Shown: positions 28,070-45,989 of the stretch, one piece after another
Layout of the letters: every line of letters starts with the position of its first letter
Position numbering within the stretch: the first letter of the stretch is position 1
Assembly: GCA_028284415.1 (NCBI GenBank)
Contig: JANQRU010000004.1
Coordinates: 620,001 to 684,000, forward strand
DNA from: Pyrinomonadaceae bacterium
GTDB lineage: Bacteria; Acidobacteriota; Blastocatellia; Pyrinomonadales; Pyrinomonadaceae
Direction: 5' to 3'
Length of the DNA stretch: 64,000 nucleotides
Made by a program: the position numbers and the translations under genes
Notes under the pieces: generated by a model
What the model saw: only the letters and a program-made list of their open reading frames with translations
Database searches by the model: none
What the model was told of the DNA's origin: nothing

Positions 28070-28936
28070 CTAAGGTCTGTTTATATCCAAAACAGCATAA
28101 CGATAACCGTCAAGTAATGTGTAATTTTCCTTTGATTTAGTTAATTCAATTTCAACTGTTTTTCCACTGGAAGTTAATTCAAGATATGATCGCCCTTGAA
28201 AAGAATAGATTTTATACGTTCCTTCCCCTTTGTTTCTATTTCTTCTAATATCTGATCCGCTCTGTCCCCAGTAGCCTGTACTGGCACTAAAGTAATATGA
28301 GAATGTGCCGTCCCTGTAGAGTTTGATTATTCTTGTATCAGACTGCCCTGACGAGCCGCTACCTGAATCACTATTGGTTCTAGTTATCATATATTTCAAT
28401 TGCTTTCCAATAATTCGCTGCTTCCAAAAATCAGTATTTGGCATTTCTTTCTGACGAAAAAACTTTACTGACCTCGCAAGTTTTTCAGCCTCTCCAATGT
28501 GTATCTCTCCAAATTTTCCTTTTTCTGTGACCATAAAAATATTGATCCCGCTACCCAATTGATTTATTAAACCAATCGCAAAAACTCTTACTTGACTCCC
28601 GCTAAAGATGCCTTCGTAAAAACCTTCGACTCTGTTATTTCCTACTACTTTAAAATCACCTCTGGGGGCAAGTTGGATTCCTTCATTTGAAATGCCTTGT
28701 AAAGCTAGATATTTAAGTTGTTTTGTATCTTTGCTTTGATTTTTTGATAAAATCATAATCCCTGGTATTGAGGAATGTCCTAACAAATAATAATCTCCCT
28801 CAATTCTGCCAGTCCACCCTTTTGGAGTTTCAAAACTCAAACCGAATTCCTTAAATTCTATCTTTTTATTTGTTTGTGAACTTACAATTGAACCGCTCAT
28901 TAATAATGTTATTAGTACAAAAATTACTTTTCTCAT
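28070..28936 (-). CDS. Exported two-domain hypothetical protein
   Basis: This 288-residue protein has a signal peptide (MRKVIFVLITLLMSGSIVSS). The N-terminal half is a PsbP-like or DUF1795-like shape (EFGLSFETPKGWTGRI to about residue 165). The C-terminal half has a lipocalin-like order of strands (DGTFSYYFSASTGYWGQ, GEGTYKIYSFQGRSYLELT, DGYRYAVLDI). The separating loop is Ser/Gly-rich. It is the last gene of a three-gene operon (28964, 30229 upstream) under the shared motif at 32491-32536. I do not know its function; the operon suggests work in the cell envelope. Confidence 0.65.
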   Translation of the reverse strand: MRKVIFVLITLLMSGSIVSSQTNKKIEFKEFGLSFETPKGWTGRIEGDYYLLGHSSIPGIMILSKNQSKDTKQLKYLALQGISNEGIQLAPRGDFKVVGNNRVEGFYEGIFSGSQVRVFAIGLINQLGSGINIFMVTEKGKFGEIHIGEAEKLARSVKFFRQKEMPNTDFWKQRIIGKQLKYMITRTNSDSGSGSSGQSDTRIIKLYRDGTFSYYFSASTGYWGQSGSDIRRNRNKGEGTYKIYSFQGRSYLELTSSGKTVEIELTKSKENYTLLDGYRYAVLDINRP

Positions 28937-28963
28937 GAAATTTCTCCAAACCTCTTATCCCAA

Positions 28964-30214
28964 TTATCTCAACATAACCAATCTTTGAATTTTTGTTTTA
29001 CTCAATTCTTTTCCATTTCCATCTAATGCAACCACACGCCAACTTGGATTTTTAGCCGCAAATCTTTTCCAGAACCAAGACGGTGCTTGATAGCTCTTGC
29101 TTGGTGCGAGAAGCATCGCTGAAAGAATTGGATTATTTTCTGCGTCCAAAACCTCTAAACGATATGCGGCGGCATTTTCCAGATGATTCCAGTTAAATAC
29201 GAGGGGTTTTGTCAAATCTATTGGCGTTTCTTTTTGTGGTAAAAGTAAAGCCGTATCTTCCCAAGCCGTTTTGGCGTCTTTACCAACAACAAAAAATTTC
29301 AAAACGGGCATTGGGAAAGATGCGACTGCTCCTGCTTGGACGACACCGTTACCAACTCCGACCGACGTTAAATTTGAGCTTGATTCTTTATCGTCAACTG
29401 CTTCAATTCTCAAGAGCAAAAGATATTGTCCCTCTGCTAATGTCGGCACACGACCATTGAGTTCAAGTGGGAGTTTGAACTCCCCTGTCGGAGGTAGAAA
29501 ATGATTAAAACGGCTGATCTGCGTGTACCGTTTTTGTGCTGCTCTCTGTTCTACAGGTAATGTAGCTTCTGTTAACAAATCTCTGTCCGCCGGCGGTTCT
29601 TCGCCCGGTTGAACAATTTCCCAACGCCCTTTTAATCTGCCCGTTCCGTTGTATTTTATGTCAGCATAAATTTTAGGGAATTTCTCACCCGAGTTGATAA
29701 ACAAAATTGGTTTTTCAGAAGGCGTCTGAATTTCAACATTCGTCAAAGCAAAAGGGGTTCTCGCACCGCCGCTTCCCATACGACAGGTTACCGCGACAAA
29801 TTGGTCTGGGTCTCCATTGGTCGAAACAAATCTACGCACATAGAAAAATCCTGCATCGCCGCCTCTTTGTGCCGCTTGATATGCCCGACGAACGACTGAC
29901 GATGGTATCCCCATAATGTCTGTAAATCCTTGATTTCCGCTCGTTCTGGAACGATTTAGGCGTGCGGGGAGAGAGCCATAGATCGTTCCGGGACGACATT
30001 GCTGACCGAGTGCAGGAAAAGTTGCGGGAATTAGTTGACCACACCATAAGGCTTCTGCCGGAACATAGCCTGCGGGAATAGGTCCAAAGGTTAAAAACAC
30101 AGTCGTCGGGTTTTGCGAATTGACATTTACACCTGTCGGATTTACGCGAATCTGTGCTTGTAATGCAATCTGCAATAAAATTATTAAGCCAATGATTTTT
30201 ACAATGTTTTTCAT
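28964..30214 (-). CDS. Exported hypothetical protein of the CHAT locus
   Basis: This 416-residue protein has a signal peptide (MKNIVKIIGLIILLQIALQA). The first half contains a Cys-containing loop (ALWCGQLIPATFPALGQQC); the second half looks like fibronectin-III-type beta-sandwiches (LVFNWNHLENAAAYRLEV). A preceding block repeats a PTTVFLTFGPIPAGYVPAEA pattern. I do not recognise a named family. It starts 14 nt after the barrel gene with its own GGAGG site, so it is expressed in step with it and may be a periplasmic or surface partner. Confidence 0.65.
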   Translation of the reverse strand: MKNIVKIIGLIILLQIALQAQIRVNPTGVNVNSQNPTTVFLTFGPIPAGYVPAEALWCGQLIPATFPALGQQCRPGTIYGSLPARLNRSRTSGNQGFTDIMGIPSSVVRRAYQAAQRGGDAGFFYVRRFVSTNGDPDQFVAVTCRMGSGGARTPFALTNVEIQTPSEKPILFINSGEKFPKIYADIKYNGTGRLKGRWEIVQPGEEPPADRDLLTEATLPVEQRAAQKRYTQISRFNHFLPPTGEFKLPLELNGRVPTLAEGQYLLLLRIEAVDDKESSSNLTSVGVGNGVVQAGAVASFPMPVLKFFVVGKDAKTAWEDTALLLPQKETPIDLTKPLVFNWNHLENAAAYRLEVLDAENNPILSAMLLAPSKSYQAPSWFWKRFAAKNPSWRVVALDGNGKELSKTKIQRLVMLR

Positions 30215-30228
30215 TTTCGCCTCCGAAT

Positions 30229-32430
30229 TTAGAAAAGATTAAAGGTCAATCCAAAGTTAAAAGTCTGGGATTTATTTATTGAGTTAAAGAAAAATTGTCG
30301 GTCGATCGAATCGCCATAGCGATTTGCATAACGTATGAAAAATTGTCCTGACATTTTCTTAAATTTATTTTCACCAAGGCTGAAATTGTATGCCCATTGA
30401 GCATCAAGCTCACCGTTGCGTGTATCATTCAAATTTCCCGTATCGCCCGCCATTGTGAATGAAAAGCCACCGCTAAAGACAGAGTTTTTAATATATGGAG
30501 TAGTCCAAGTTCCTCGCGTACCTATGCGGAAAGTTCGGTCAACTTTATTTAGCTCAAAGCTTTTTTGTCTTTCTCTCGCAAAATCAAAATCTAGCCCAAG
30601 TGTTTGAAATGGTCTGTAATTGACAGTTATGCCGTTTGAAGCCGAGGCTAGATCAGCATTTGCTCTGCCGATCTGCCGATTATCCTGAAACGCTCGATTG
30701 TGAACGTAACCGATCGTCAAATTTTCAGAAATCATCCATTGAGCATTAACTGCCTGTGTGTAGCTTTTTTGGTTTGGCACTTGTGATTCATCGGTAAAAA
30801 GTCCTGCGGTCGGCAAAAATGCTCCGTATTGATGAATTAAACCAAAAGTATATGAAACGGTCGGAAGCCATTTAATAGGCTTTTCACCTGTGAAAAATGA
30901 GTTTAATGGAATGCTTACATTTACATTGTTTTGGCGATTCAGAGTTTTTAGAATCGAAGCGATGTCGTCGAGGTTATCCCTTTCACGTAAGTTTCCAAAA
31001 CCAAAATTTATTTCGCCTAAATTTCCCGTGATCTCAAATTGATTTTTGCGACGGTCAGCTTGTGTAAACACTCCGATGCTGCGGAAAAGAGGGAGAATTT
31101 CTTCATGGCGAAAAGTTCCTGTAAGTTTTAGCTTTTTTTCTTTCCAGAGCTTCAAGCCTTGAATTATGTCGAAACTAATTTCTCCGTAACGTGCATTTTT
31201 TGTTTCTGATGTAACTTGCGTAACCTCAAATTCTTGTTCAAGATTCGGATCGCTTGGATTTGTAAATTTGCTTCTTGTAAAACTTGCTTCATATCGAAGT
31301 CTTTCTTTCAGAGTGTTTCCAAGAATCTTAAAACCGAACCCTAAGCTTTTCTCGGCATCATTAATTTCGCCTTGATTGAAATTTTCCAAGGGGAGAAGTG
31401 AACCACGCATTACAGAAAACTCCACACGCAAACCTCCGGGTCGCTCCTTTACAAATTCACGTGCGAAGGTGCCGCTGACGAGGCTGTGTTTTTTGCGTGA
31501 GATGCCGAGAAAATTGTCATAACCGACTACCGAACTTCCATTTGCAGCCGCGAATGTAAAATCATTTTGCTTGCCAATCGGAACTGTCAGCGTAAAACCA
31601 CGACTAGAAAAACTATTTAATAAATGTCTGTTTGAGCCGAAGGAAACATGTCCGAGATTAAATTTGAACCTTCCTTTTGAAAGTTCGACCAAATAGCTTG
31701 ATAGATCTATTTTTGGGGCTTCATTCTGCAAATCTCCAAATCGTAAGGCTTCCTGAATAAATGATGAGCCTGCAAAATCAAATTGATTACTGAGTGTCCA
31801 ACCTCTTTTTGAAAACTTAAAGAGTATGTTTCCCTGTCCCGCCAAATCTGTAAATGGATTTCTTTCGGGAGCAGCATCTTCGGGAAATGTTTTTGTTTGG
31901 TTCTGTCCTTTTATATTTAGAGAGACATTTGGCGTAAATTCCCATTGCATTTTGCCATCTTCGGTATTTCCATTTTCCTCGCTAAAATCCTCCGAGCCAT
32001 TATTATTTTCGTCTGAATTTGTTTCATCAGAAACATTTTCATTTTCCCCTTCGGCTTTAACTCTCAAAGGCAATTCAGCTATGGTCTTCCATTCTCCGGC
32101 TTTGTTAATTAGATAAATCGAAAGTTGATTTTCACCAATGGGAAGTGGAAAAATGCTGGGCTGATAACTCAGAGTTTTATCTTGAACAGAAAAGAGCGAA
32201 CTGACGTCGGTTGTACCGATAAATACTGCTAATTTGCCGTCTTCACTCGTCAATGAACGGTCTAAATTCAGCTCTATTTTTTCGGTTTGGCTAATTTCCT
32301 TATCCGCGAAACTTGCCGTAACTGCAAATTCGCCATTACTTTGTGCAGAAATTTCATCTGCAACAAATATCAACAAAAACATTGTTGATAAAAAAATCGT
32401 TGCTTTTAGGATAATAGTTTTTCCGTTCAT
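30229..32430 (-). CDS. Predicted outer-membrane beta-barrel protein with N-terminal beta domain
   Basis: This 733-residue protein has a signal peptide (about 29 residues), an N-terminal Ig-like domain (about 30-130), an acidic Asn/Glu-rich linker (about 130-165) and then about 560 residues of alternating amphipathic strands ending NKSQTFNFGLTFNLF. The final aromatic residue in such a context is the usual recognition signal for barrel insertion by BamA. No plug domain and no named family are seen. It is first in a three-gene operon, and its start is 61 nt from the shared promoter motif. It is the best candidate for the export or display platform of the locus, by inference. Confidence 0.7.
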   Translation of the reverse strand: MNGKTIILKATIFLSTMFLLIFVADEISAQSNGEFAVTASFADKEISQTEKIELNLDRSLTSEDGKLAVFIGTTDVSSLFSVQDKTLSYQPSIFPLPIGENQLSIYLINKAGEWKTIAELPLRVKAEGENENVSDETNSDENNNGSEDFSEENGNTEDGKMQWEFTPNVSLNIKGQNQTKTFPEDAAPERNPFTDLAGQGNILFKFSKRGWTLSNQFDFAGSSFIQEALRFGDLQNEAPKIDLSSYLVELSKGRFKFNLGHVSFGSNRHLLNSFSSRGFTLTVPIGKQNDFTFAAANGSSVVGYDNFLGISRKKHSLVSGTFAREFVKERPGGLRVEFSVMRGSLLPLENFNQGEINDAEKSLGFGFKILGNTLKERLRYEASFTRSKFTNPSDPNLEQEFEVTQVTSETKNARYGEISFDIIQGLKLWKEKKLKLTGTFRHEEILPLFRSIGVFTQADRRKNQFEITGNLGEINFGFGNLRERDNLDDIASILKTLNRQNNVNVSIPLNSFFTGEKPIKWLPTVSYTFGLIHQYGAFLPTAGLFTDESQVPNQKSYTQAVNAQWMISENLTIGYVHNRAFQDNRQIGRANADLASASNGITVNYRPFQTLGLDFDFARERQKSFELNKVDRTFRIGTRGTWTTPYIKNSVFSGGFSFTMAGDTGNLNDTRNGELDAQWAYNFSLGENKFKKMSGQFFIRYANRYGDSIDRQFFFNSINKSQTFNFGLTFNLF

Positions 32431-32490
32431 TTCATTCCTCTCCCAAAAAACTGACAGTTAAATTTCCAAACTCAGACCAATTAAATTGCT

Positions 32491-32536
32491 TTTCACTTAT
32501 AACTGACATTTAAGCGGAAAATGTGTCGCCTTTTTT
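32491..32536 (-). promoter_or_regulatory. Shared bipartite promoter motif, copy 1 (upstream of 30229-32430 operon)
   Basis: On the minus strand CGACACATT (32520-32528) is followed after exactly 13 nt by TCAGTT (32501-32506) and ATAAGTGAAA. An A-rich run lies just upstream of the first block. Confidence 0.75.
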
Positions 32537-32550
32537 AGGATTTTCTTTAA

Positions 32551-32592
32551 ACAAAAAAAAGGCGATACTCCTTGCCGTAGAAGCATCGCCAA
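32551..32592 (-). terminator. Terminator of A1 gene (A type)
   Basis: GGCGAT (32561-32566) pairs with ATCGCC (32585-32590), with further partial pairing. On the minus strand it ends with a run of eight T. Confidence 0.75.
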
Positions 32593-32616: not shown

Positions 32617-33546
32617 TTAAAAACTGCAATTTGCTTTATATGTACTTCGAAAAGGTTTAACAAGGATGTCTGAGCCTTTTTCGATGTTAAATCCTTTAAT
32701 TTCGTAATTGCTATTGTTCGTAACTCTTATCTTCCACCTTCCATTTAGTTGGGCATCTGCCGCAGACACATTGTAGGTAACTCTAAATTTTCGTGGGAAT
32801 TGCCCCGACGAATGAACCGAATGAACATTTCTCCTAGAAAGAGCAACTCTTCCGTTTGGCTTCAAAAGCTGTATATTTAAGGGTGGAAAGCGTACTGGGA
32901 GAATATTATCCGCGTGCCATTTTGCACTAAGTCGTATAGTTCCTGCTGCTTTTCCAACTCTGTAGATATCTAATGTTTGGGTATTACCTTTTTTCAAAGT
33001 TAGGGTTGTCCCCTGCATATCAAGATTTACGGTTCTGGGGCAATTAGGACGATAAATTGAGCGAACACTGCTCGGAACAAAAGGGTTAACATCTGAACCT
33101 TTTTCAACATCAAAGCCCTCAACTTCATAATTACTGTTATTTGTAATTCTTAAGCTCCAGTTACCTGATCTATTCGCTTCTGCCAAACTAACGGTATAAT
33201 TAATTCTGCACTTCGGGTTTCTATTAGCATGCATTGAGTAGCAATTAAATGTTCTTAAGACTCGGCTTCCATGTCTTAGTTGAATTCTTAGCCTATTAAA
33301 CACCGGTAAAATATTTACTGCGTGCCATTTTAATCTCAATCTAATTTCTCCCGGTATGCCACGCGGGATACGTCTCAAATCTCTATTTACAGTATTTCCT
33401 TTCGGAACTGTTGCTGTTCCCCCTTGCATATCGATTCTTATGTCATCTGCAAAAGCCATCCCTGCAAAAACTCCAAGAATCATTGTCATCGTTAAAATGT
33501 AAGTTTTCACTTTAGTTTTATGTTGGTTCAAACTAAGTTTTATCAT
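32617..33546 (-). CDS. Family A exported protein, copy A1 (two-repeat beta-sandwich-like)
   Basis: This 309-residue protein has a signal peptide (LTMTMILGVFAGMAFA) and two related repeats of about 130 residues. Each repeat has the pattern DMQG...PKGNTV.R, LKWHA.NI.P, RLRIQLRHGSR or LNIQLLKPNG, GNW or GRW, and ITNNSNYEVEGFDVEKG. Conserved Cys pairs (NCYSMHANRNPKC) are likely disulfides. The start is the second ATG (MIKLSLNQHK) because the first lies inside the GAGGAG ribosome-binding site. The function is unknown. The SGNWSLRITNNSNY block resembles PPC-type beta-sandwich strands, by inference only. It has its own promoter motif and terminator. Confidence 0.7.
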   Translation of the reverse strand: MIKLSLNQHKTKVKTYILTMTMILGVFAGMAFADDIRIDMQGGTATVPKGNTVNRDLRRIPRGIPGEIRLRLKWHAVNILPVFNRLRIQLRHGSRVLRTFNCYSMHANRNPKCRINYTVSLAEANRSGNWSLRITNNSNYEVEGFDVEKGSDVNPFVPSSVRSIYRPNCPRTVNLDMQGTTLTLKKGNTQTLDIYRVGKAAGTIRLSAKWHADNILPVRFPPLNIQLLKPNGRVALSRRNVHSVHSSGQFPRKFRVTYNVSAADAQLNGRWKIRVTNNSNYEIKGFNIEKGSDILVKPFRSTYKANCSF

Positions 33547-33611: not shown

Positions 33612-33660
33612 TTTCATTTGTCTAAAACTGATAAATCAAAACAAAATGTGTCGTTTTTTT
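33612..33660 (-). promoter_or_regulatory. Shared promoter motif, copy 2 (upstream of A1)
   Basis: CGACACATT (33645-33653), 13 nt, TCAGTT (33626-33631). The tail after the second block (TTAGACAAATGAAAA) is the least conserved of the set. Confidence 0.7.
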
Positions 33661-33772: not shown

Positions 33773-34624
33773 TTATTTACATCCATCAGTTCTTTCAAAC
33801 CATATCCAAATATCCTCTGTATCTCCTCTTGAATCACCTTTAACCTCGAGCGAATAATCAGAATACGTCCTACTTATCCCATCTCTGCTTGGTGGAAGAT
33901 TATATACAAGCTTCATTTTTTTATTATTTGGAACTCCAAATGCCCTTTTCGAATAACCAGTTCCTGTAGCAACAATAGAACTACCTTTCCTTAAGATAAA
34001 TTTCAACTTACATCCAAATCGGTCAAAACCGCAACTCCCTTTCCAAACGCCAGTAATTTCCAATCTAGTTCCGTCTTTGGGATGTACAGTTCTACTTATT
34101 CGATAGTTATCTATTCGGTAAGTTATCCCTTGATTTTTTTTTAATCCCTGCCTGTTTGTTATACCTTTTCTACTGTAACTTGGAGTTGGCGGATTAAACC
34201 ATTGAAAAGTTGCAATACCAACCTGTGTGTTTTTTCTGGATGTATTCTTAATTCTTACTCTATAAGTTCCTTTTTTACTGCAACTAAAAACGACATGTCT
34301 TAAATAAACTCTCTTAAATTTGTTGTTCGTCGTCACATATTTAGTAGTCACAACATTTGTATTACCTTTTACCAAATCAATTCTGAATCTAGTGGTCTTT
34401 CCCAAACCCAAAAACCCCTTTACAGCAACATTTACGGGAATTTTGATTTCCCCGGTAGTTCGCACTGAAAAAGTTTTAGAATACGCATATTTTGAACCTT
34501 TTGGTATGTTAATTGATCCTAAATTTACTACTTCAGCATTTGTTGAGATTGCCCCCAAAATCACAAATAAAACTAAAGAAACCAAGCCACCTATTATCTT
34601 CAATACTTTCTTTTCTTTTTTCAT
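33773..34624 (-). CDS. Family B exported protein, copy B1
   Basis: This 283-residue protein has a signal peptide (VLKIIGGLVSLVLFVILGAI). The first half follows the family B pattern: LGSINIPKGSKYAYSKTF, a GEIKIPVNVAVKGFLGLG strand pair, YVTTNNKFKRVYLR and SCSKKGTYRVRIKN. The second half holds the Cys pair SCGFDRFGCKL. I start at MKKEKKV, after AAAAGGAG. The longer frame would run back into the promoter motif. B proteins share with A only size, export and Lys/Arg-rich beta character. The function is unknown; a surface or matrix role is inferred. Confidence 0.7.
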   Translation of the reverse strand: MKKEKKVLKIIGGLVSLVLFVILGAISTNAEVVNLGSINIPKGSKYAYSKTFSVRTTGEIKIPVNVAVKGFLGLGKTTRFRIDLVKGNTNVVTTKYVTTNNKFKRVYLRHVVFSCSKKGTYRVRIKNTSRKNTQVGIATFQWFNPPTPSYSRKGITNRQGLKKNQGITYRIDNYRISRTVHPKDGTRLEITGVWKGSCGFDRFGCKLKFILRKGSSIVATGTGYSKRAFGVPNNKKMKLVYNLPPSRDGISRTYSDYSLEVKGDSRGDTEDIWIWFERTDGCK

Positions 34625-34687: not shown

Positions 34688-34733
34688 TTTCACTTATAAC
34701 TGAAACATTGTGCAAAAATGTATCGTTTTTTTT
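34688..34733 (-). promoter_or_regulatory. Shared promoter motif, copy 3 (upstream of B1)
   Basis: CGATACATT (34717-34725, one base off consensus), 13 nt, TCAGTT (34698-34703), then ATAAGTGAAAGG. Confidence 0.72.
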
Positions 34734-34800: not shown

Positions 34801-35721
34801 TTAAGAACAATAATTTTTATATGTACTTCTGAAATTCGGAACTGCTCGGGATGAATCTCTACCTTTTTCGATGTCAAAACCAAATATATCGCCTCTGGTA
34901 TTATTCTGAATTCTAATTTTCCAAGATCCCGAAAGTCGAGCATCCGCACTGGTTACATTATAACGGATATTCATTTTGGTTCTTCCAATAGGACTATGAT
35001 AGGAGTAAGCCGTTCTAGTTACTGCGGTTCTTCCGTTTGGTTTTATGAGTTTTACAGTCAATGGATCGTAAGTTAGAAGAGACATTGCCGAATACCACTT
35101 AGCTTTTACCAAAATTACGCCTTTTGATTTTCCAACACCATATAGATTACGAGTAAGTGTGTTTCCTTTTGAAACTTTTGCTGGTGTTCCCTGCATATTT
35201 AGATATTGGGTTTTGCTTGTACAAGGAGACGTGGAAGGCGTATATCGAAATACAGATCTGAAATTCGGAACTGCGGGGAGCACATCAGAACCTTTTTCTA
35301 CATCAAACCCCATAACCATAAATCCGCTATTATTGGTTATCTTAATATTCCACGGACCACTGCGTCTTGCTTCTGCTTGACTCACTGTGTAGTAGAGAAT
35401 ACATTTTGGATTTTTATTTGAATGGTAAGAATAACAGTTGCTCGTTCTCAAGATTCTGTTTCCGTGTCTTAAACGTACAGTTAATCTGGTAAAAATTGGA
35501 ATTGGATTTACTACGTGCCATTTTAATCTGAGTCTGATCTGTCCGGCTGTTCTTGTAGGAATTCGGTATAAACTCCGAGTTATCGTTTGACCTCTTGGAA
35601 TAGCTGCTGCCGAGCCTTGCATATCAATTCGTCTATCAATTGCAAATGCCGACACTGCAAACAACCCCAAAATCATTGTCATCACCAAAAATAAATTTTT
35701 CGCATTTGTTAATTTTTTCAT
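34801..35721 (-). CDS. Family A exported protein, copy A2
   Basis: This 306-residue two-repeat protein of family A has a signal peptide (LFLVMTMILGLFAVSAFA). Its first repeat (RIDMQGSAAAIPRGQTITR to MGFDVEKGSD) and second repeat (YLNMQGTPAKVSKGNTLTR to FGFDIEKGRD) align over their full length. The Cys sites NCYSYHSNKNPKC are kept. A 42-bp stretch near 35516-35557 is identical to one in A5 (near 40761-40802), pointing to recent duplication or gene conversion. The start is the ATG nine nucleotides from AAGGAG. The function is unknown. Confidence 0.7.
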   Translation of the reverse strand: MKKLTNAKNLFLVMTMILGLFAVSAFAIDRRIDMQGSAAAIPRGQTITRSLYRIPTRTAGQIRLRLKWHVVNPIPIFTRLTVRLRHGNRILRTSNCYSYHSNKNPKCILYYTVSQAEARRSGPWNIKITNNSGFMVMGFDVEKGSDVLPAVPNFRSVFRYTPSTSPCTSKTQYLNMQGTPAKVSKGNTLTRNLYGVGKSKGVILVKAKWYSAMSLLTYDPLTVKLIKPNGRTAVTRTAYSYHSPIGRTKMNIRYNVTSADARLSGSWKIRIQNNTRGDIFGFDIEKGRDSSRAVPNFRSTYKNYCS

Positions 35722-35801: not shown

Positions 35802-35848
35802 TTTCATTCATAACTGCAAAAAATTTTGGAAATGTGTTGTTTTTTTTT
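35802..35848 (-). promoter_or_regulatory. Shared promoter motif, copy 4 (upstream of A2)
   Basis: CAACACATT (35831-35839), 13 nt, GCAGTT (35812-35817), then ATGAATGAAAGG. Each block has one mismatch from consensus, but the spacing is exact. Confidence 0.68.
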
Positions 35849-35929: not shown

Positions 35930-36727
35930 TTAACTGCACTTTGGAAAAAAACGAATTCGCGTCCTAACGTTTGAAACATTTCCATTTGGACTTCCAATAA
36001 CTTCTACTTTCCAATCACCTCCGATTTCACTTCTGCGAAGGTTGAACTCTATTTTGAAGTTTCCACTAGAAACATTCGGCTGAAGATAAGTGTATTTGTT
36101 ATTGCGTTTTAGCCGAAAACCTAATCTGCAACCACCAGGACTGAGAAAACAATTAGTTCCGCCTGCCCAATTGGCAGTCAATATAAGTCTACCAAGGCTT
36201 TTAGGTTCATGTTGTCGTGGTATATCACGAATAACAGTTCGTTTTTTTGAGACCGAAAATGACGACATGTTGTAAGAAGTCATCTTTAGTATTGGTGGGT
36301 AAAATGGATTAAAATTCGCCACACCCGGTTGAGGATTACTTGAAGAATAGTTTCTTATTCTGATTTTATATCGTCCTTTCTGATTACAATTAGAAACAAC
36401 ATATCTTAAATAAACATTTTTTCCGGCTGCGGATGTTGTTACATATTTAACCTGAACTTCTCTATTTTCTCGCATCAATACAACCCGATAACGAGAAGTT
36501 CCACCTGAACCGAAAAAACCTGCGACTGCTACTTTTACTGTAACTTTCAGTTCTCCTTTATTAGTAACCCAAAAAGATTTTGAATAAGCGTACTTTGTAC
36601 CTTTTGCAATATTGATTGATGGAAGTCTTACTGAATTTGCGTAAATCGAAACTGAACTTATAGTTCCCACTAAAGCGAAAAAAATAAAACACATCGTTAA
36701 TTTCAATAAATTATTTTTTAATCTCAT
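35930..36727 (-). CDS. Family B exported protein, copy B2
   Basis: This 265-residue family B protein has a signal peptide (LTMCFIFFALVGTISSVSIY). Family blocks: LPSINIAKGTKYAYSKSFWV, LKVTVKVAVAGFFGSGGTSR and YVTTSAAGKNVYLRYVVS, then a C-terminal half with Cys pairs NCFLSPGGC and a final PKCS. It follows A3 after 64 nt with no promoter motif and no terminator between, so A3-B2 form an operon. The function is unknown. Confidence 0.7.
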   Translation of the reverse strand: MRLKNNLLKLTMCFIFFALVGTISSVSIYANSVRLPSINIAKGTKYAYSKSFWVTNKGELKVTVKVAVAGFFGSGGTSRYRVVLMRENREVQVKYVTTSAAGKNVYLRYVVSNCNQKGRYKIRIRNYSSSNPQPGVANFNPFYPPILKMTSYNMSSFSVSKKRTVIRDIPRQHEPKSLGRLILTANWAGGTNCFLSPGGCRLGFRLKRNNKYTYLQPNVSSGNFKIEFNLRRSEIGGDWKVEVIGSPNGNVSNVRTRIRFFPKCS

Positions 36728-37829: not shown

Positions 37830-37874
37830 TTCATTATTAACTGTAACCAAATAAGAACATGTGTCGGTTTTTCT
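37830..37874 (-). promoter_or_regulatory. Shared promoter motif, copy 5 (upstream of A3-B2)
   Basis: CGACACATG (37858-37866), 13 nt, ACAGTT (37839-37844), then AATAATGAAGG. Confidence 0.68.
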
Positions 37875-37949: not shown

Positions 37950-38762
37950 TTATCTACAATCTGGAATGAAATAAAGTTTTGGAGTAACGTTTGAAGCACT
38001 TCCTATCGAACTTCCAATAACCTCTAATTTCCAATCACTACCTACTCTATTTGCGGGGACATTGTAAATAATTCTCATTCTCTGATTAGAAGGATAAAGT
38101 GAGGTTATTGGATACCCGCTTTTGTAAGCAACAGTTTGGTTATTACTTTTCAGTCTAAATATTAATTTACATTTTGTAGGAGAAAGATAACAATCACTAC
38201 TCCAATTCCCGGTTATTTCTAATCTACCTGTGCCTTTGGGTTCACGGTGATTATATATATCGCGTGTAACCCTATGCCCTTGAGGAACTGCAAACCCCGG
38301 CATAGTATAGTTTATTATTTGCTTAATTGGTCGATTAAATGGTCTAAAGCTCGCAGCCCCGGGCTGCGGATTCTGGGAAGAATAGTTCCTTATCCTAATT
38401 TGATATTTGCCTGTTCTGCTGCAACTGGAAATAGGATATCTCAAATAGACATTTTTTCCTGATGTAGATGTCGTTACATATTTAACGTCAACCTCGCTTT
38501 TTTCTCGCATTAAAGCTACTCGGTATCGCGAACTGCCTCCCGAACCAAAGAAACCTTTTACCGCAACTCTCACAGTAATTTTTAGTTCCCCTTTACCAGT
38601 AACATAAAAAGGTTTTGAGTAGGCATAAGTTGAGCCTTTTTTGATATTAATGGATGGAAGTCTTGTGTTGCTACCATATATCGAAACCGAACTTAATACT
38701 CCAAACAAAACAAATAAAGTAAAACTAAAACCTAATTTCAAAAACATCTTTTCCATTCTCAT
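37950..38762 (-). CDS. Family B exported protein, copy B3
   Basis: This 270-residue family B protein is close to B2 in its first half (LPSINIKKGSTYAYSKPF, AVKGFFGSGGSSRYRVALM, RNYSSQNPQPGAASFRPF). It has a signal peptide (LGFSFTLFVLFGVLSSVSIY) and C-terminal Cys sites (DCYLSPTKCKL). ATG codons occur at residues 1 and 3, so the exact start is uncertain by two residues. It has its own promoter motif and terminator. The function is unknown. Confidence 0.7.
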   Translation of the reverse strand: MRMEKMFLKLGFSFTLFVLFGVLSSVSIYGSNTRLPSINIKKGSTYAYSKPFYVTGKGELKITVRVAVKGFFGSGGSSRYRVALMREKSEVDVKYVTTSTSGKNVYLRYPISSCSRTGKYQIRIRNYSSQNPQPGAASFRPFNRPIKQIINYTMPGFAVPQGHRVTRDIYNHREPKGTGRLEITGNWSSDCYLSPTKCKLIFRLKSNNQTVAYKSGYPITSLYPSNQRMRIIYNVPANRVGSDWKLEVIGSSIGSASNVTPKLYFIPDCR

Positions 38763-38827: not shown

Positions 38828-38872
38828 CTCATTTTTAACTGAATAGAATTTTAGAAATGTGTCGTTTTTTTT
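38828..38872 (-). promoter_or_regulatory. Shared promoter motif, copy 6 (upstream of B3)
   Basis: CGACACATT (38856-38864), 13 nt, TCAGTT (38837-38842), then AAAAATGAGAAG; an A-run precedes the first block. Confidence 0.75.
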
Positions 38873-38962: not shown

Positions 38963-39916
38963 TCAGTTATTAGGACACGTAGTTTGATAGTAACTATTAA
39001 ATCCCGGAATCAGCGGATTAATATCCGAGCCTTTTCTCAAGTCAAAACCAACTACATCATAACCACTATTATTTGTAACCTTTATTTTCCACTTGCCCGT
39101 AGAGGAAGCTAATGCGGGTGAAACTGGAAACTCCTTATTTCTAAGTTTTGGATTGTATGCATTAGTGGAATGAATTGAATAATAATTAGCCGCCTTCATT
39201 TTTTTTCCGTCGGGTTTGATTATTTGTATTTTTAGCTTTACATATGGCATCAAGGGATGATTTGCGTGCCATTTTCCAGTTAGGTTTATATAACCGGCAA
39301 ACTTATCAATATTTTTAATTTCTCTTATTCTTGATGCCCTGTCGGGAATGTTCAATTTTCCGCCGCTGAGCACGATATTTTTTCTCACGTTTACACAAGT
39401 GTCTGCCGTCGTTCGATAAACTGACCGAAAATTCTGCACGGACGTATCATTTCCCTTTTCGATATCAAACCCTGTTACGGCAAAACCAAAATTATTTATT
39501 ACCTTCAAATACCATAAATCAACGCTTGAATTTCGATATCTGGTTGCTTCGCTTTGGCTAACCGTGAGGTTGATGATGCATCTAGGGCTTTTTCCGTTTG
39601 CGTGGTAGGAATAACAATTTTTGGTTCGAAGCGTTCTGTTTTCTCCATGTCTGAGTTGAATTTGGAGTTTATTGAATAAAGGAGTCGAGCTTTGAACGTG
39701 CCATTTTATCTTCAATCTAATTTGCCCGGGTTTGTTTCTCGGTATCCCTGAAATTCTAAAGTTTTTTGATTTTCCAGCAGAGATTTTTCTTGAATACTGC
39801 GGATTCGATAAATATATTCTAGTATCTGTCGCAAACACCTTATCGGAAATTCCTGCAAATACTAAAAGGAAAAAAACTACTTGAATCACAACAAAATATA
39901 TTTTCGACTTAAACAT
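38963..39916 (-). CDS. Family A exported protein, copy A4 (no shared promoter motif)
   Basis: This 317-residue two-repeat family A protein has a signal peptide (FVVIQVVFFLLVFAGISDKV). It has the family blocks (KPGQIRLKIKWHVQ, NCYSYHANGKSPRC, GFDIEKGND and GFDLRKGSD), but both repeats have local insertions compared with the other copies. It is the only single-gene unit lacking the CGACACATT-N13-TCAGTT motif upstream: the segment 39940-39990 has AAACTGAAAAATGTATAG, where the two halves are too close. It may be read from a different promoter or be transcriptionally degenerate. The function is unknown. Confidence 0.68.
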   Translation of the reverse strand: MFKSKIYFVVIQVVFFLLVFAGISDKVFATDTRIYLSNPQYSRKISAGKSKNFRISGIPRNKPGQIRLKIKWHVQSSTPLFNKLQIQLRHGENRTLRTKNCYSYHANGKSPRCIINLTVSQSEATRYRNSSVDLWYLKVINNFGFAVTGFDIEKGNDTSVQNFRSVYRTTADTCVNVRKNIVLSGGKLNIPDRASRIREIKNIDKFAGYINLTGKWHANHPLMPYVKLKIQIIKPDGKKMKAANYYSIHSTNAYNPKLRNKEFPVSPALASSTGKWKIKVTNNSGYDVVGFDLRKGSDINPLIPGFNSYYQTTCPNN

Positions 39917-40048: not shown

Positions 40049-40987
40049 TTAAGAACAGGAATTTCGATATGTGCTTTTGAAGTTTGGTACTAGTGGTATT
40101 GGGTCATTTCCTTTTTCAACATCAAACCCCACAACCTCAAGTCCGCTATTGTTTGTGACTTCTAGTTTCCAGCGTCCCGTCATTTGTGCATCGGCATCTG
40201 TTACGTTGTATCGGATTACCATCTTCGGTCTTCCAATTTTGTTGTGGTATGAATAAGCTGTTTTCATTCTTGCCGTTTGTCCATTTGGTTTTTTCAGCTT
40301 AACTGTCAAGGAGTTGAAAAAAGGTACGGGATTGACTGCATGCCATTTAGCTCTTAGTAAGATAATACCTTTTGATTTGCCGATATTGTAAAGGTTACGC
40401 GTTACAGTATTTCCCTTTGGAACTGTTGCAGTTGAACCTTGCATATCAATTTTTTTAGTGGCTTCACTACAAGGTGGTGGAGCAGGTGTATATCGGAAAA
40501 CTGATATGAATCTTGGAACTAGAGGTAAAGCATCTGCACCTTTTTCGACATCAAACCCGATAACTTCCAATCCGCTGTTATTAGTTACTTGCACATTCCA
40601 GTTACCGCGTCTATTTGCCATTGCATGACCAACATTGTAATTGATAATACATTTCGGAGTTTTGTTTGAATGATATGAAAAACAGTTGCTTGTTCTTACG
40701 GTCGAATTTCCTTTTCTCAGACGCACGGTTAGTCTATTAAAAAAAGGTATCGGATTTACTGCGTGCCATTTTAATCTGAGTCTGATCTGTCCGGCTGTTC
40801 TTGCAGGAATTCTGTATAAATTACGGGTTACAGTATTTCCCTTTGGAACTGTTGCAGTCGAACCCTGCATATCAATTCTTACATCAACCGCATAGGCAGA
40901 TATTGCTAATATGCTCAAAATCATTGTTGTCATCAAAAGTGTTATTTTTGTTCTTTTCAAAGCTTGTTGGAATTTTTGTTTTGTCAT
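40049..40987 (-). CDS. Family A exported protein, copy A5
   Basis: This 312-residue family A protein is the clearest two-repeat copy. Repeat 1 and repeat 2 both begin with IDMQGSTATVPKGNTVTRNL and both end with NNSGLEVIGFDVEKG-like strands, so the internal duplication is recent or under strong constraint. It has a signal peptide (LLMTTMILSILAISAYA). The Cys site NCFSYHSNKTPKC is in repeat 1, and single Cys residues sit between the repeats and at the C-terminus. I start at MTKQKFQQ, past the GAGGAG site. The function is unknown. Confidence 0.72.
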   Translation of the reverse strand: MTKQKFQQALKRTKITLLMTTMILSILAISAYAVDVRIDMQGSTATVPKGNTVTRNLYRIPARTAGQIRLRLKWHAVNPIPFFNRLTVRLRKGNSTVRTSNCFSYHSNKTPKCIINYNVGHAMANRRGNWNVQVTNNSGLEVIGFDVEKGADALPLVPRFISVFRYTPAPPPCSEATKKIDMQGSTATVPKGNTVTRNLYNIGKSKGIILLRAKWHAVNPVPFFNSLTVKLKKPNGQTARMKTAYSYHNKIGRPKMVIRYNVTDADAQMTGRWKLEVTNNSGLEVVGFDVEKGNDPIPLVPNFKSTYRNSCS

Positions 40988-41064: not shown

Positions 41065-41110
41065 TTTCACTTGTAAGTGAAGAAAAATGCAAAAATGTGT
41101 CGCAACAAAA
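41065..41110 (-). promoter_or_regulatory. Shared promoter motif, copy 7 (upstream of A5)
   Basis: CGACACATT (41094-41102), 13 nt, TCACTT (41075-41080), then ACAAGTGAAAAGC. It directly abuts the terminator of the CHAT gene upstream. Confidence 0.7.
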
Positions 41111-41155: not shown

Positions 41156-41173
41156 TCTTTTTTTAGATTTTGA

Positions 41174-44100
41174 TTATTTCCAATCCCCTTGGACGGTGAA
41201 TGCTGCCCAGTAATATGGGTGTTTCCAACGCTTATCTTTGATCATTTGAATCTGTGCTAAGCGAAGTGCTGCCGTTGGATTATGTCCGTCTTTAAGCATT
41301 GACTGATAGAATTTTTTCATCAGTTCTGCGGTCGCACGATCTTCTACCTTCCAGAGACTTGCAACCACTCTCTCTGCCCCTGCATACATAAATCCGCGAG
41401 TTAGACCGACCATCCCTTCACCGCGTACATCTTTTCCTAAAGCAGTGTCACAAGCACTTAAAACTACCAAGTCAGCATTTAATTTTAGGTTATAAATATC
41501 GTGAAGTCTTAAATAACCTTCTTGTTGCTTTCCATCTTTGCCTACTAAAGATAAGACAATTCCTGAGAGTCCGGGGTATTCGCTCATAACGATTCCGTGA
41601 GTTGCAAGATGTATTATTTTTGCTCGACTGAATTTCGGACTTTCGAATAATTGAACATTAGCATCAAAATCAAGTGCAACTAATTTATCATTTTTCGGAA
41701 TAAACTTGGATATGGCTTCAGCTTCCCGACGGCTAAAGCGTAGTCTTGATAAATCTGAACGAAATTTTGAACTAACCAATTTAGCTTGAACATTCATATT
41801 GTCCGACAAATTGGATTTTCCATTGGATTTAGCTTTTGCTAATTCTGTTTTTACTCTTACATCATCCTTGCTAAAAACAGGGTCAGCTATTATTGCTACC
41901 AAATCTGTCGATTTAGCAGATGCTTCATTTGAACTATCGCGCAGAAACGCTAATGTCGAAATAGAAGGTAAATTAATGACCTCATTGTTTTCAATCAAAA
42001 ATTTTCTCTTATTTGAGTCCTTCGAATTCTTAAGAATAAGAGCCGAGAAAGGAATGTAATGGAGAGCATCCTCGGAAACAATTACCAGACGCTTTCCCTT
42101 TAACTTTTCCATATCAAAAGGAAACAAAATTTTGCTGAGATTTTCATTTGCTTTGAAAAATTCTTTATCTGATTGTCCCAAACGCAACTCTCTACTTCGA
42201 TAATTTTCATCTTTTACGGTCTTACTTCTCGAATTCAATGAGTCAATAAAGTTTTTCGCAACATCAAATATCTTTCTATACTTAGGTAACTTATAACTTT
42301 TAACTGAATCTTTTGTAATTGCCCACAGATAGCTTCTCTCTTCCCCCATCGAGTATTGAAGTAAAACAGTGTTTTCATCTAAGATTTCTTGCTGTACTTT
42401 TTCTAAAGAAATTGGTTTAGGACGGATCAAGGTCGCATATTTTGGATTAGCGGACTTAATTTGAGTTTTTACTTGTTCATATTCGACAAGTAATTCTTTA
42501 ACTTCTTGCTCAACCGCTTTAACTCTTTCAGCCTTTGCTTTTCTTCTTGTAAGACTAACTCGTTGACGCTCCCTTGCATTTATTCTTCCTCTAAGGAGCT
42601 TTTCTTTATCTAATAATTCTTTGCTAATTCCCTGTTGAAGGTTTGTTCTGGATTCCGCAAGAGTTTCTAATAAACTTCTTGCCCTAGCCTGTTCACTTAC
42701 TTCAAATACTTTTTTGATATTTTCAGCAGATACTTCACCTTTTCCAGCATTCATTAATAAATCTATATAAAAATCATAGATGTCCTGACTCAAAGCAAAA
42801 TACGAAGATCGTAAGTTCTGATTCAATATTACGGCACGTAAAGACTCTACTGTTTCTATCGCTTCTTCAATAGCTTTTCGGGCATTTTCAATATCTCCGA
42901 CGTCTCTTTTTATCTTAGCTATTCCTAACAAGTTTTTTGCTATTTCGCCTGAATTTCGCAACTCCTTTCTAATTTGTAAAGCTTTTTCATAGCTACTTAA
43001 TGCTTTTTCTTTTTCATTTGATAAATACAATGTGCCGGCTAAATTATAGAGAGTATTTGCTATACCTTCCTTATTGCCTAAAGATTCAAGAATATTCAAA
43101 GATTGATTCATATAATCTACAGCTTTTGAATAATCACCTTTCTTTTCATAAACAACTCCGACATTGTTCAAAATCCACCCCTCATTCTGGCGGTCTTTCA
43201 AACTTCGACTAATTTCAAGTGCTTTTAGTAGTTTGTTCAATGCTTCGTCCGGTTTGCCGATATTTAGTAGAGAAATACCGAGGTTCTTCAAACTTGAGGC
43301 ATAGTTTCGCTTATCTCCTATTTTCTGGGAAATATCAGTGGCTTGTTTATAATAATCCTGTGCTTTTGTGTAGTCGCCCAGAGCATTGTAAAAAACACCT
43401 ATATTGTTGAGTGTTACAGCTTCTCTTTGCTTATTTCCGCTTTCTCTAAAAATAGATAAGGCATTATTAAAATGCTTCATTGCTTCATCTATCTTAAACA
43501 TATCTGAGTAAGCGACTGATAAATTGATATTTATATCTGCTTCACCTTCTTTATGATTTAGAGCTTTAGCTATTTTTAGAGCTTTCGTGTAGCTTTCCAG
43601 AGCTTTATCTTGATAACCATACAAACGACTGATTAAACCTATATTATTTAACAAAGAAACTTGTGGTTTTAGTTTTCCCGATCTCTCAAAAACTGCTGCG
43701 GCTTTCTCAAAATTCTCTAGCGAATTTGGTATTTTCCCCTGTCTAAAATAGATAACTCCCAGCTCATTTAGAACCATTGCTTCTTTTTCTTCATCATTCG
43801 CAGCTTTTGCAATTTTTTGAGCTTCATTTATAGAAGATATCGCTTCAGGATATTTTCCTAATCCCCGAAAGGACTGAGACATATTCAACAAAGCAAATAT
43901 TTCTCCCTGTGAGTTATTAATTTGGTGGTTGAGCTCAGCTGATTTCTGAAAGTATGGTATGGATTTTTCAAATTGGCTAAGACGCTTGTAAATATGCCCG
44001 ATATTATTATTTGCGTCGGCTTCGTGCTTTTGCATCTCAAGTTTATTAAAGACAGGTATTAGTTCTTCATATTTTTTTATCGCCTGCTTCATTGACTCAG

Positions 44101-44233
44101 CTTTATTACTGCGATGTAAGGTTTTCGCCTCTTCATAAAGCTTTTCAGCCTCAGCCTTACTATCAACTTGTGCTGAAATGCTTACTAAACAAATAAAAAA
44201 TACTGTTGCGACTAATAACTGCTTTACAAACAT
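41174..44233 (-). CDS. Exported TPR-CHAT protein (caspase-like protease domain)
   Basis: This 1019-residue protein has a signal peptide (MFVKQLLVATVFFICLVSIS), then about ten tetratricopeptide repeats (about residues 25-480; for example ALNNIGVFYNALGDYTKAQD), a coiled-coil-rich region (about 500-620) and a C-terminal CHAT domain. CHAT is a caspase-HetF-type cysteine protease fold. The catalytic pair is visible: His879 in IIHLATHGIV and Cys928 in VVLSACDTALG, with the usual GEGMVGLTRGFMYAGA after it. The start at MFVKQ follows a GAGGAG site; the longer frame overlaps the anti-sigma gene. It is co-transcribed with that gene (32-nt gap). The substrate is unknown; the neighbouring exported A/B proteins or the anti-sigma factor are candidates by inference. 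Confidence 0.88.
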   Translation of the reverse strand: MFVKQLLVATVFFICLVSISAQVDSKAEAEKLYEEAKTLHRSNKAESMKQAIKKYEELIPVFNKLEMQKHEADANNNIGHIYKRLSQFEKSIPYFQKSAELNHQINNSQGEIFALLNMSQSFRGLGKYPEAISSINEAQKIAKAANDEEKEAMVLNELGVIYFRQGKIPNSLENFEKAAAVFERSGKLKPQVSLLNNIGLISRLYGYQDKALESYTKALKIAKALNHKEGEADININLSVAYSDMFKIDEAMKHFNNALSIFRESGNKQREAVTLNNIGVFYNALGDYTKAQDYYKQATDISQKIGDKRNYASSLKNLGISLLNIGKPDEALNKLLKALEISRSLKDRQNEGWILNNVGVVYEKKGDYSKAVDYMNQSLNILESLGNKEGIANTLYNLAGTLYLSNEKEKALSSYEKALQIRKELRNSGEIAKNLLGIAKIKRDVGDIENARKAIEEAIETVESLRAVILNQNLRSSYFALSQDIYDFYIDLLMNAGKGEVSAENIKKVFEVSEQARARSLLETLAESRTNLQQGISKELLDKEKLLRGRINARERQRVSLTRRKAKAERVKAVEQEVKELLVEYEQVKTQIKSANPKYATLIRPKPISLEKVQQEILDENTVLLQYSMGEERSYLWAITKDSVKSYKLPKYRKIFDVAKNFIDSLNSRSKTVKDENYRSRELRLGQSDKEFFKANENLSKILFPFDMEKLKGKRLVIVSEDALHYIPFSALILKNSKDSNKRKFLIENNEVINLPSISTLAFLRDSSNEASAKSTDLVAIIADPVFSKDDVRVKTELAKAKSNGKSNLSDNMNVQAKLVSSKFRSDLSRLRFSRREAEAISKFIPKNDKLVALDFDANVQLFESPKFSRAKIIHLATHGIVMSEYPGLSGIVLSLVGKDGKQQEGYLRLHDIYNLKLNADLVVLSACDTALGKDVRGEGMVGLTRGFMYAGAERVVASLWKVEDRATAELMKKFYQSMLKDGHNPTAALRLAQIQMIKDKRWKHPYYWAAFTVQGDWK

Positions 44234-44264
44234 TTTACTGCTCCTCTTGAAATGATTCTTGCTT

Positions 44265-45314
44265 TCACTTCTTTTCAACCGTGAAGTTGTAGTAATTAAT
44301 TTCTTCAACCTCACCTTCTTTGGTAATGCCTTTAACTGCGATTTCTTGATTTCCTTTTTGGAATTTATCACTCGAAATACTGATACTGATTGATTTTTGC
44401 GGACGTTTTTTGGAAGCTTTCAATTCCCGACTCCAGATCGTTGAACCACCACCATTATTTAAATCAATGATGAACTTCTCATATTTGTCGCCAAAATTAT
44501 CAAGTAAACGCAAACGAACTGTTTTTGCCGTTGAAGGAATTTTTAGCACAGGAGTTGTGCTGCTACGCAATGGCGGCAAAAGTGAAAAGGCAAAAACTTT
44601 CGGTTGTGGTCTGACAGGTTTTGGTTTCTTAACTGTCTTTGGCTCTTTCTCTACAGGTTTTGGAGTTGGTTTCGGTTTTGACTTATTTACATCAGGATTT
44701 TTTGAAACTGATTCTTTGTTTGTATCAACTGCTTTCTTATCTAATTCCTCTGATTTGTTTGTGTTTTCTTGGGTAACTTCCGAAGGAGATTTCTCCGGCT
44801 CTGGTGTAAATTCCGGCGTCGGTTCGATCTGAACAGGAATATTCTCTTTTAAGTTGGAATCCTCTTTGTTTACGATATTTTCGCCGCTTTTAGGCTGTGT
44901 CGCAATCCAAACTCCGCCAAGCAAAAGCATTAGCAAAATTGCTCCTAAGCCTCCTGCCAAAGCCAAATTTGGAAGACGAAATAAACCTGCGAGAGATTCC
45001 CAAAAACCTTTACTTTCCTCAGTTGAAACTACTTTCTCTTCATTAAATAATTCATTTTGTAAGGTTCTCGCAACGGCGACTCTTTCAAACCTACTTTCGG
45101 TTGTCAGATATTTCTTTTCAAATTTTCTTTTTTCTTCAAATAAAAGTTCCCCACGTACATATTCGTCAATCAGATCATTTTCGACTTCATCTACAAACAG
45201 ACTAAAATCTTCGTCCGTGAAAAGACGTTCTTCCAAATTATCCCGCTCGGTATTACTTAATTCCCCGTATAGATATTGAGTTGCTATTTTTTTGTTTTCT
45301 TCTATGTTTTTCAT
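44265..45314 (-). CDS. Membrane anti-sigma-factor-like protein
   Basis: This 349-residue protein has an N-terminal cytosolic helical domain of the anti-sigma type (ATQYLYGELSNTERDNLEER, EVENDLIDEYVRGEL) but without the HxxxCxxC zinc motif. One transmembrane helix (LALAGGLGAILLMLLLGGVW) follows at about residue 125. The long periplasmic part has a Pro/Lys-rich linker (KPKPTPKPVEKEPKT) and a C-terminal beta domain (about 245-349). It sits immediately downstream of the ECF-like sigma gene and upstream of the CHAT gene, the usual order for a sigma/anti-sigma pair. It is preceded by its own copy of the shared promoter motif. By inference it holds the sigma factor until a periplasmic signal, possibly CHAT cleavage. 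Confidence 0.75.
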   Translation of the reverse strand: MKNIEENKKIATQYLYGELSNTERDNLEERLFTDEDFSLFVDEVENDLIDEYVRGELLFEEKRKFEKKYLTTESRFERVAVARTLQNELFNEEKVVSTEESKGFWESLAGLFRLPNLALAGGLGAILLMLLLGGVWIATQPKSGENIVNKEDSNLKENIPVQIEPTPEFTPEPEKSPSEVTQENTNKSEELDKKAVDTNKESVSKNPDVNKSKPKPTPKPVEKEPKTVKKPKPVRPQPKVFAFSLLPPLRSSTTPVLKIPSTAKTVRLRLLDNFGDKYEKFIIDLNNGGGSTIWSRELKASKKRPQKSISISISSDKFQKGNQEIAVKGITKEGEVEEINYYNFTVEKK

Positions 45315-45351
45315 TTTTCCCGTTGCTTCCAAAATACAGTTCGGGGGTAAC

Positions 45352-45397
45352 TTTCATTTATAACTGACAAACTTACCCAAAATGTGTCGTTTTTTTT
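45352..45397 (-). promoter_or_regulatory. Shared promoter motif, copy 8 (upstream of anti-sigma-CHAT)
   Basis: CGACACATT (45381-45389), 13 nt, TCAGTT (45362-45367), then ATAAATGAAAG, with a run of A before the first block. It overlaps the last codons and 3' end of the sigma gene. Both blocks match the consensus exactly. Confidence 0.78.
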
Positions 45398-45398
45398 C

Positions 45399-45989
45399 TT
45401 AAAAATTTTTTATTTGCATACATTTTTTTATACAGGACTCCAATCTGCTACGTAATCTGACTGCACGGCTTCGTAAAGCATTCTGCGGAATGCCCAGTTT
45501 TTCAGCCATTTTTTTACGATTCTCTATCTTTTCCTGACGCTCGCCCTGATAATATCCTTTGATCAATTCTCTTTTTTCCGGTTTTAATTCATCCAGACAT
45601 TTGTTGAGACATGAAAGTTCATCTCCCTGGTCTGATTTTTCTTCCTCAACGGGCGAAATACTTACTTCAGGTAATTCATTTGATGTTTTTTGTTCGAGAG
45701 ATCGGCGTTCTTCAAGGGTGACAAGGCGAGCGATACCAAGGGCGTATGTGTTTACATTTTCAAGCTGTTCGCCTGATTCCAGTTTTTTGGCGAGGCGATT
45801 AATGACTTCATCAACCGCTGATTGTGAACGGGCAATTCCACGCACCTCAAAATACCGCAATAAATTTTTGCAGAGAAGAAGATATTTCTCTCCAGCTTCA
45901 TTACGGTCTTCAGATAAAGCCGCGAGCAATCTATCTAAAGCGACTTCCGTTAATTCCCATTTCTTATTAATTGCAACTTCCGCTTTCAT
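45399..45989 (-). CDS. ECF-like RNA polymerase sigma factor
   Basis: This 196-residue protein has sigma-70-type region 2 (about 20-95; NLLRYFEVRGIARSQSAVDE, NVNTYALGIARLVTLEERRS) and a region 4 helix-turn-helix (about 125-190; LDELKPEKRELIKGYY, KMAEKLGIPQNALRSRAVRL). Regions 1.1 and 3 are lacking, so it is a group 4 (ECF-type) factor. The start is the ATG of MKAEVAI; a TTG six codons upstream is possible. It lies directly before the anti-sigma-CHAT pair. Its own upstream region has the second half of the shared motif (TCAGTTATAA at about 46108-46116) but not the first, so it is probably not expressed from the same promoter class. Confidence 0.8.
   Translation of the reverse strand: MKAEVAINKKWELTEVALDRLLAALSEDRNEAGEKYLLLCKNLLRYFEVRGIARSQSAVDEVINRLAKKLESGEQLENVNTYALGIARLVTLEERRSLEQKTSNELPEVSISPVEEEKSDQGDELSCLNKCLDELKPEKRELIKGYYQGERQEKIENRKKMAEKLGIPQNALRSRAVRLRSRLESCIKKCMQIKNF

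Follow-up and report, generated by a model that had tools for sequence, protein, structure and literature searches.

A conserved cassette of Pyrinomonadaceae in which a predicted-exported TPR-CHAT protein likely cuts a membrane anti-sigma-like protein to free an ECF-like sigma factor

CHAT proteins are widespread in bacteria and, to our knowledge, have known substrates in only a few cases. The RseA/DegS/RpoE and RsiW/SigW systems are examples of regulated proteolysis of a membrane anti-sigma factor. The accessible part of PMC10028731 discusses the proteolysis in both, and, together with the accessible part of PMC9729208, describes a tetratricopeptide repeat (TPR)-CHAT protein of type III-E CRISPR, Csx29, that cuts Csx30, which binds and inhibits an extracytoplasmic function (ECF) sigma factor. 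The N-terminal fragment of Csx30 remains bound to sigma after the cut (accessible part of PMC9729208). Sigma/anti-sigma pairs, proteolytic release and the action of a TPR-CHAT protein on a sigma inhibitor in type III-E are thus already known. Here we describe a locus at positions 28070-45989 of a 64,000-nucleotide stretch from a Pyrinomonadaceae bacterium (the window; bases 620001-684000 of contig C2 in a 5.02 Mb genome). It belongs to a conserved cassette in which, judging from sequence, a predicted-exported TPR-CHAT protein likely cuts a membrane anti-sigma-like protein, freeing an ECF-like sigma factor for an array of predicted surface proteins.

Like the type III-E module (Cas7-11/gRAMP, Csx29, Csx30 and CASP-sigma/RpoE, as the accessible parts of the same papers give it), this locus encodes a TPR-CHAT protein with a candidate sigma inhibitor and an ECF-like sigma factor. 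It differs in that CHAT is predicted to be exported, the anti-sigma-like protein is predicted to span the membrane and the output would be a surface-protein array. No Cas gene was recognised among the open reading frames (ORFs) examined and no Cas7-11-like name appeared among the scanned proteins (no dedicated search was made). The sigma factor missed the cut-off of the III-E sigma model (28.1 bits versus 100), and the only match of the CHAT region to PDB sequences up to E 1 was an unrelated one (E 0.42). Kinship with the type III-E module has no support from sequence. The locus is comparable to RseA/DegS/RpoE and RsiW/SigW in its predicted membrane anti-sigma, whose presumed cut on the outside would release an ECF-like sigma factor; unlike in those systems, the protease acting outside would here be a caspase-like one whose gene accompanies the pair and which in some loci is a single protein with the anti-sigma. 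An earlier sequence-only reading of this DNA knew of no described system of this composition. Type III-E, with a TPR-CHAT protein acting on a sigma inhibitor (accessible part of PMC10028731), is a partial precedent. An envelope-facing counterpart is not one we could find: the accessible parts of the open-licence literature held no description of a chromosomal envelope-facing TPR-CHAT/sigma version or of an anti-sigma-TPR-CHAT fusion.

Fourteen genes make up the locus, all on the minus strand, in the order sigma, anti-sigma, TPR-CHAT, A1, A2, B1, A3, B2, A4, B3, A5, OMP, g2 and g3 (ORF positions in the window). The roughly 18 kb one-strand arrangement that the sequence-only reading had claimed was confirmed, with every gene in its place. 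Export and helix calls were made by hydropathy scan, with no signal-peptide program. The scan placed an N-terminal hydrophobic segment in CHAT, A1-A5, B1-B3, OMP, g2 and g3, each of which had been proposed, and is here again predicted, to be exported. The sigma gene (45399-45989, minus strand; 196 amino acids (aa) from its ATG) encodes a protein in which the scan found no transmembrane segment. It matched the NCBIfam models TIGR02989 (2.7e-14) and TIGR02937 (1.3e-10), both below the curated cut-off; its ECF-like character, also proposed earlier, stands on model matches of 1e-10 to 1e-14 and falls short of the curated scores. Among 16 relatives, TIGR02989 was matched in all, TIGR02937 in 14 at 1e-5 or better, and Pfam region 4 (PF08281) in 14 at E 0.01 or better.

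The anti-sigma-like gene (44265-45314, minus strand) lies beside sigma, an arrangement conserved in relatives. Its product has an N-terminal domain, one predicted transmembrane helix (residues 119-147 of the 355-aa frame), a proline-rich linker and a C-terminal domain predicted to lie outside; its match to Pfam zf-HC2 (E 0.0034, 17.9 bits) is under the cut-off of 22.2. The TPR-CHAT gene (41174-44233, minus strand; 1019 aa from ATG 44233) matched the CHAT domain PF12770 with 231 bits against a cut-off of 24 (Pfam E 2.5e-68), and TPRs were matched as well. His879 and Cys928, numbered from that ATG, are invariant in 12 of 12 aligned CHATs, and we take them to be the catalytic pair. A catalytic His and Cys are named for Csx29 in the accessible part of PMC10028731.

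A direct connection between CHAT and the anti-sigma is suggested by proteins in which the two are fused. Searching with the anti-sigma returned many frames of 1,170-1,230 aa that matched by their N-terminal part only, and we fetched 20 loci (L159-L178), nearly all for such long frames. At 19 of the 20, a count that is not a frequency, a single protein of ~990-1,215 aa unites the anti-sigma domain and CHAT, with a predicted helix between them; among these, the anti-sigma match of L163 is weak (E 0.002) and L174 ends within CHAT. The twentieth, L175, ends at the contig end before CHAT. TPRs were found in all six fused proteins checked by Pfam. The ORF scan placed a sigma gene in 18 of the 20 stretches, and adding stop-to-stop frames raised this to 20 of 20. 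All 18 readable fused proteins have a His and a Cys in alignment with the pair in the window's TPR-CHAT protein. This fusion makes it likely that CHAT and the anti-sigma act together. Because an anti-sigma domain (if cytoplasmic, as sigma binding needs) is joined to TPR-CHAT by one helix, TPR-CHAT would be placed outside the inner membrane, which fits the likely signal peptide of the unfused protein here. We conclude that CHAT likely resides outside the inner membrane and acts together with the anti-sigma.

CHAT could instead be nothing but a co-regulated output, with sigma and anti-sigma controlling the array and the exported protease processing A/B or outside proteins. We think this unlikely, even though CHAT sits behind the sigma-type promoter of the anti-sigma gene, lies on the opposite strand in two other triples of the genome (L041 and L042), and has no match near the sigma, anti-sigma and A genes of genome G010. 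A direct role is favored by the single anti-sigma-CHAT proteins encoded near a sigma gene (19 of 20 loci, chosen mostly for their long frames), and sigma/anti-sigma/CHAT triples are found with other payloads or with none identified. It is also improbable that CHAT works without cutting, the TPR-CHAT protein being a ligand-sensing partner of the anti-sigma whose conformational change loosens sigma. The fusion would suit such an allosteric sensor equally well, but a non-catalytic sensor would not need the His and Cys, which are kept in all 12 separate and all 18 readable fused proteins. Separately, proteins neighbouring the L041 and L042 loci of the same genome (L041:12612-16371, L042:12486-13793) look, by their motifs, like clostripain-type (C11) peptidases, another caspase-fold family.

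Eight transcription units of the locus carry the same promoter-like motif, CGACACATTT-N13-CAGTTA, and this earlier claim held up closely: the halves are separated by exactly 13 bases in all eight, with 0-1 mismatch. The motif begins 75-118 bases 5' of the ATG of the anti-sigma, A1, B1, A3, A4, B3, A5 and OMP genes. On the minus strand, it is free of mismatches before anti-sigma/CHAT (45361-45389), B1 (38836-38864) and the OMP operon (32500-32528), and has one mismatch before A1 (41074-41102), A3-B2 (37838-37866), A4 (35811-35839), B3 (34697-34725) and A5 (33625-33653). A clear copy is absent from the upstream stretch inspected for sigma but present ahead of the anti-sigma/CHAT operon. Allowing up to 3 mismatches, the window contained 9 matches, the ninth being a site at 54885 with 3 mismatches; 100 shuffles averaged 0.70 matches and never exceeded 3. 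The whole genome has 10 sites with at most 1 mismatch, 8 of them in the locus, against an expectation of 0.19 estimated from single-base composition. One site, at C2:1608286 (~945 kb away), precedes a sixth A paralogue (E 1e-65 to A5). The count of five A genes thus stands for the locus and is refined for the genome, and the discovery of this gene through the motif indicates that the motif is predictive. The two elements are spaced 23 bases start to start, as expected for an ECF promoter, and we infer that they are the -35 and -10 elements recognised by this sigma factor. A further site, C2:505725 (L046:5726-5754, 1 mismatch), precedes a 149-aa ORF with a twin-arginine-like start, a possible additional target.

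Across 119 genomes of the family, A occurs in 12 (two marginal), B in 8, OMP in 15, the anti-sigma in 77 (E 1e-10) and sigma relatives in 79. A/B genes occupy 14 places, leaving out the two marginal A hits. Sigma lies within 20 kb of A/B at nine of them (G000, which is the genome of the window, G005 C26, G029, G081, G010, G033 C33, G033 C7, G030 and G031), and CHAT is also near at eight of these nine, G010 being the exception. The sequence-only reading held that the parts form a single system and would not occur apart in most genomes, and at most of the 14 A/B places they do not. The single-system claim survives in part: linkage and motif are kept across genera, but the sigma/anti-sigma/CHAT part is not specific to A/B (79 versus 12 of 119 genomes). 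Sigma, anti-sigma, CHAT, A/B, OMP and g2 occur together in G005, G029, G081 and G033 C33, and G005 C26 is matched in gene content by locus L052 of a near relative, the Pyrinomonadaceae metagenome-assembled genome SS_bin_32. A locus carries between one (G029, G081) and eight (window) A/B-like genes. Five A/B places have no nearby sigma, four of them on contigs of 4.9 to 17.7 kb: A6, the lone A gene of this genome; G005 C391, a 4.9 kb contig; G075 C244; G086 C313, with OMP and g2 present, the sigma, anti-sigma and CHAT of that genome lying on a separate contig; and G048 C164, with anti-sigma, B, OMP and g2 at the contig end and CHAT and sigma on another short contig. Outside the family, one stretch of G127, from another family, holds CHAT, sigma, anti-sigma, two A/B-like genes, OMP and g2, and in G417 an A-like gene accompanies CHAT, sigma and anti-sigma. 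At the level of the class, 12 of 162 genomes have A, and a database of 5.77 billion proteins contains 114 A proteins.

In a sigma tree of 45 rows, a single branch (support 99/94) sets off the ten A/B-linked sigmas, in a grouping count that leaves out 15 rows belonging to no group; the G048 member of the ten lies on a short contig that does not carry its B gene. The motif accompanies this group. We scanned 14 fetched relative loci (232 kb, both marginal A loci included) for the core motif CGAYACRTTT-N13-CAGT at up to 1 mismatch, and obtained 18 matches compared with 0 for the reversed pattern. Sixteen of the 18 precede anti-sigma or A/B genes, in five genera (g1, g4, g12, g14, g22), which is the enrichment near A/B genes that had been put forward as a check; the remaining two lie before a 340-aa ORF in G010 and elsewhere (G033 C33). 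The extended motif, at up to 1 mismatch, gave 36 matches in the 119 family genomes versus 3 for the reversed pattern, which we sort into 19 in cassette loci, 10 outside them that precede genes for likely exported proteins or the 149-aa ORF, and 7 background-like. By these sequence criteria, cassette and motif recur in other genera, and in another family the cassette recurs with a diverged motif. That the genes are chance neighbours, and that the motif serves another regulator or is a general promoter, is very improbable: sigma relatives, present in 79 of 119 genomes, do also occur without A/B, as does OMP in 5 of 15 genomes, but linkage and motif are conserved across genera, A/B-linked sigmas group together, and ten sites with at most 1 mismatch in 5 Mb are too few for a general promoter. 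A different DNA-binding regulator could act at the motif.

Some motif sites lie away from any cassette. An unlinked site precedes a g3 relative in G033 (E 3e-8 among fetched ORFs) and another an astacin-like protease in G029. In G029, G031 and G033 (L135, L136, L138) the motif precedes a conserved two-gene unit that encodes an exported-looking protein of 154-167 aa (57-67% identical) and a serine hydrolase of ~820 aa (70-79% identical); PF00144 was matched in the one hydrolase scanned. There was no motif copy in five further CHAT loci of the same genome (L039-L043 scanned; L044 and L045 left out) or in the 20 loci picked mostly for fused proteins, which suggests that other sigma types have a separate specificity. 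A motif variant, CGACATGTTT, precedes exported-looking proteins in L133 (G024) and L140 (G096), namely an M12-like metallopeptidase, a PEP-CTERM protein and a PKD/Calx-beta protein; G024 carries sigma, anti-sigma and CHAT on the same contig as the variant site. An orphan sigma paralogue of the window's genome (G000:C5:320208-320759, L132:8065-8763), 71% identical, nests inside the A/B-linked group, with no anti-sigma or CHAT match in the surrounding 20 kb.

Several observations weigh against a cleavage-controlled cassette of this kind. For sigma itself, the TIGR02937 score is 41.2 bits against a cut-off of 42.9, below curated ECF cut-offs, and the Pfam scan that detected region 4 gave no match to region 2. 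The upstream stretch inspected for A2 shows no clear motif copy. Among relatives, no core motif was found in L083 (G075) and L087 (G086), the sole copy in L085 is away from its A/B genes, and the -35 half ahead of the first A/B gene of G127 is changed, as judged by eye. G075 C244 has an A/B array, OMP and g2, with no sigma match in a genome that is 89% complete. The fetched stretch of G010 has sigma, anti-sigma and A, but no CHAT or g2 match and only a 39-residue piece of OMP. OMP occurs without an A or B match in five of its 15 genomes (G015, G016, G041, G079, G087), and within the window's own genus a clear A is found only in G000 and G005 among 7 genomes. CHAT may also have a substrate other than the anti-sigma.

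In the cleavage mechanism that we favor, the N-terminal domain of the anti-sigma would, at rest, keep sigma at the inner membrane. A signal in the envelope, sensed by the TPRs, would activate CHAT through His879 and Cys928, and CHAT would then cleave the anti-sigma on its outer side. Release may be completed, as with RseA, by a second, general protease; type III-E should need a further step too, since the Csx30 fragment stays bound. Freed sigma would read CGACACATTT-N13-CAGTTA and fire A/B, OMP-g2-g3 and anti-sigma-CHAT, and not its own gene. Because anti-sigma and CHAT are behind the same promoter, newly made anti-sigma would reset the switch. The A/B products would be jelly-roll proteins that are secreted and may undergo display or assembly together with OMP and g2.

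The array itself occupies the rest of the locus on the minus strand. A1 (40049-40987), predicted to be exported, has two tandem jelly-roll, P-domain-like repeats; A2 (38963-39916), the gene that lacks a clear motif of its own, and A4 (34801-35721) and A5 (32617-33546) were assigned by alignment. The P_proprotein family (PF01483, cut-off 21 bits) was matched above threshold by A1 (26.9) and A3 (36792-37754; 31.6 bits) and below it by A2 (15.5), in a Pfam scan that left out A4, A5, B2 and B3. The A proteins differ from the P domain of proprotein convertases in having two repeats and no protease domain. The C-terminal part of B1 (37950-38762) matches the A profile; B2 (35930-36727) begins 64 bases behind A3, and B3 (33773-34624) starts with ATG. 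Downstream, OMP (30229-32430; 733 aa) is predicted to be exported, the barrel being the candidate reading of the sequence-only analysis. The other two products are also predicted to be exported: g2 (28964-30214; 416 aa) is beta-rich with Ig/FN3-like domains, and g3 (28070-28936; 288 aa) has a 62.5% identical copy in L079. Pfam gave no match for B1, OMP, g2 or g3, and OMP matched no PDB sequence. OMP and g2 also occur with small exported-looking proteins in a different type of locus, represented by L152 (G041), L154 (G079), L155 (G033) and L156 (G015); those of G041 and G079 are adjoined by a 706-aa protein and a CHAT relative.

A radical-SAM gene (26147-27991) and a subtilisin-like protease gene (47337-48788) flank the cassette in the window. 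Judged by eye from the starts of the translations, the flanks in G005 and G081 resemble these, with an FBPase-like gene (plus a radical-SAM-like gene in G005) on one side and a subtilisin-like gene on the other; Radical_SAM is a profile match for the window gene. Given such similar flanks, the locus looks vertically inherited.

With a likely substrate, a motif-defined regulon output and a fused version all legible, the cassette opens the role of bacterial caspase relatives to direct test, and it hints that TPR-CHAT proteins control sigma factors outside CRISPR as well. More tentatively, and aware that the idea may well be wrong, we propose a CRISPR-free transmembrane pathway in which a periplasm-facing TPR-CHAT and an anti-sigma form one machine (two proteins here, fused in many relatives) that would carry an envelope signal to an expandable surface-protein array, such chromosomal modules being the stock for the signalling arm of the CRISPR Craspase. 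Acidobacteriota gain a predicted private promoter and surface-protein regulon and, if our reading is true, the cell would alter its surface upon a signal from outside.

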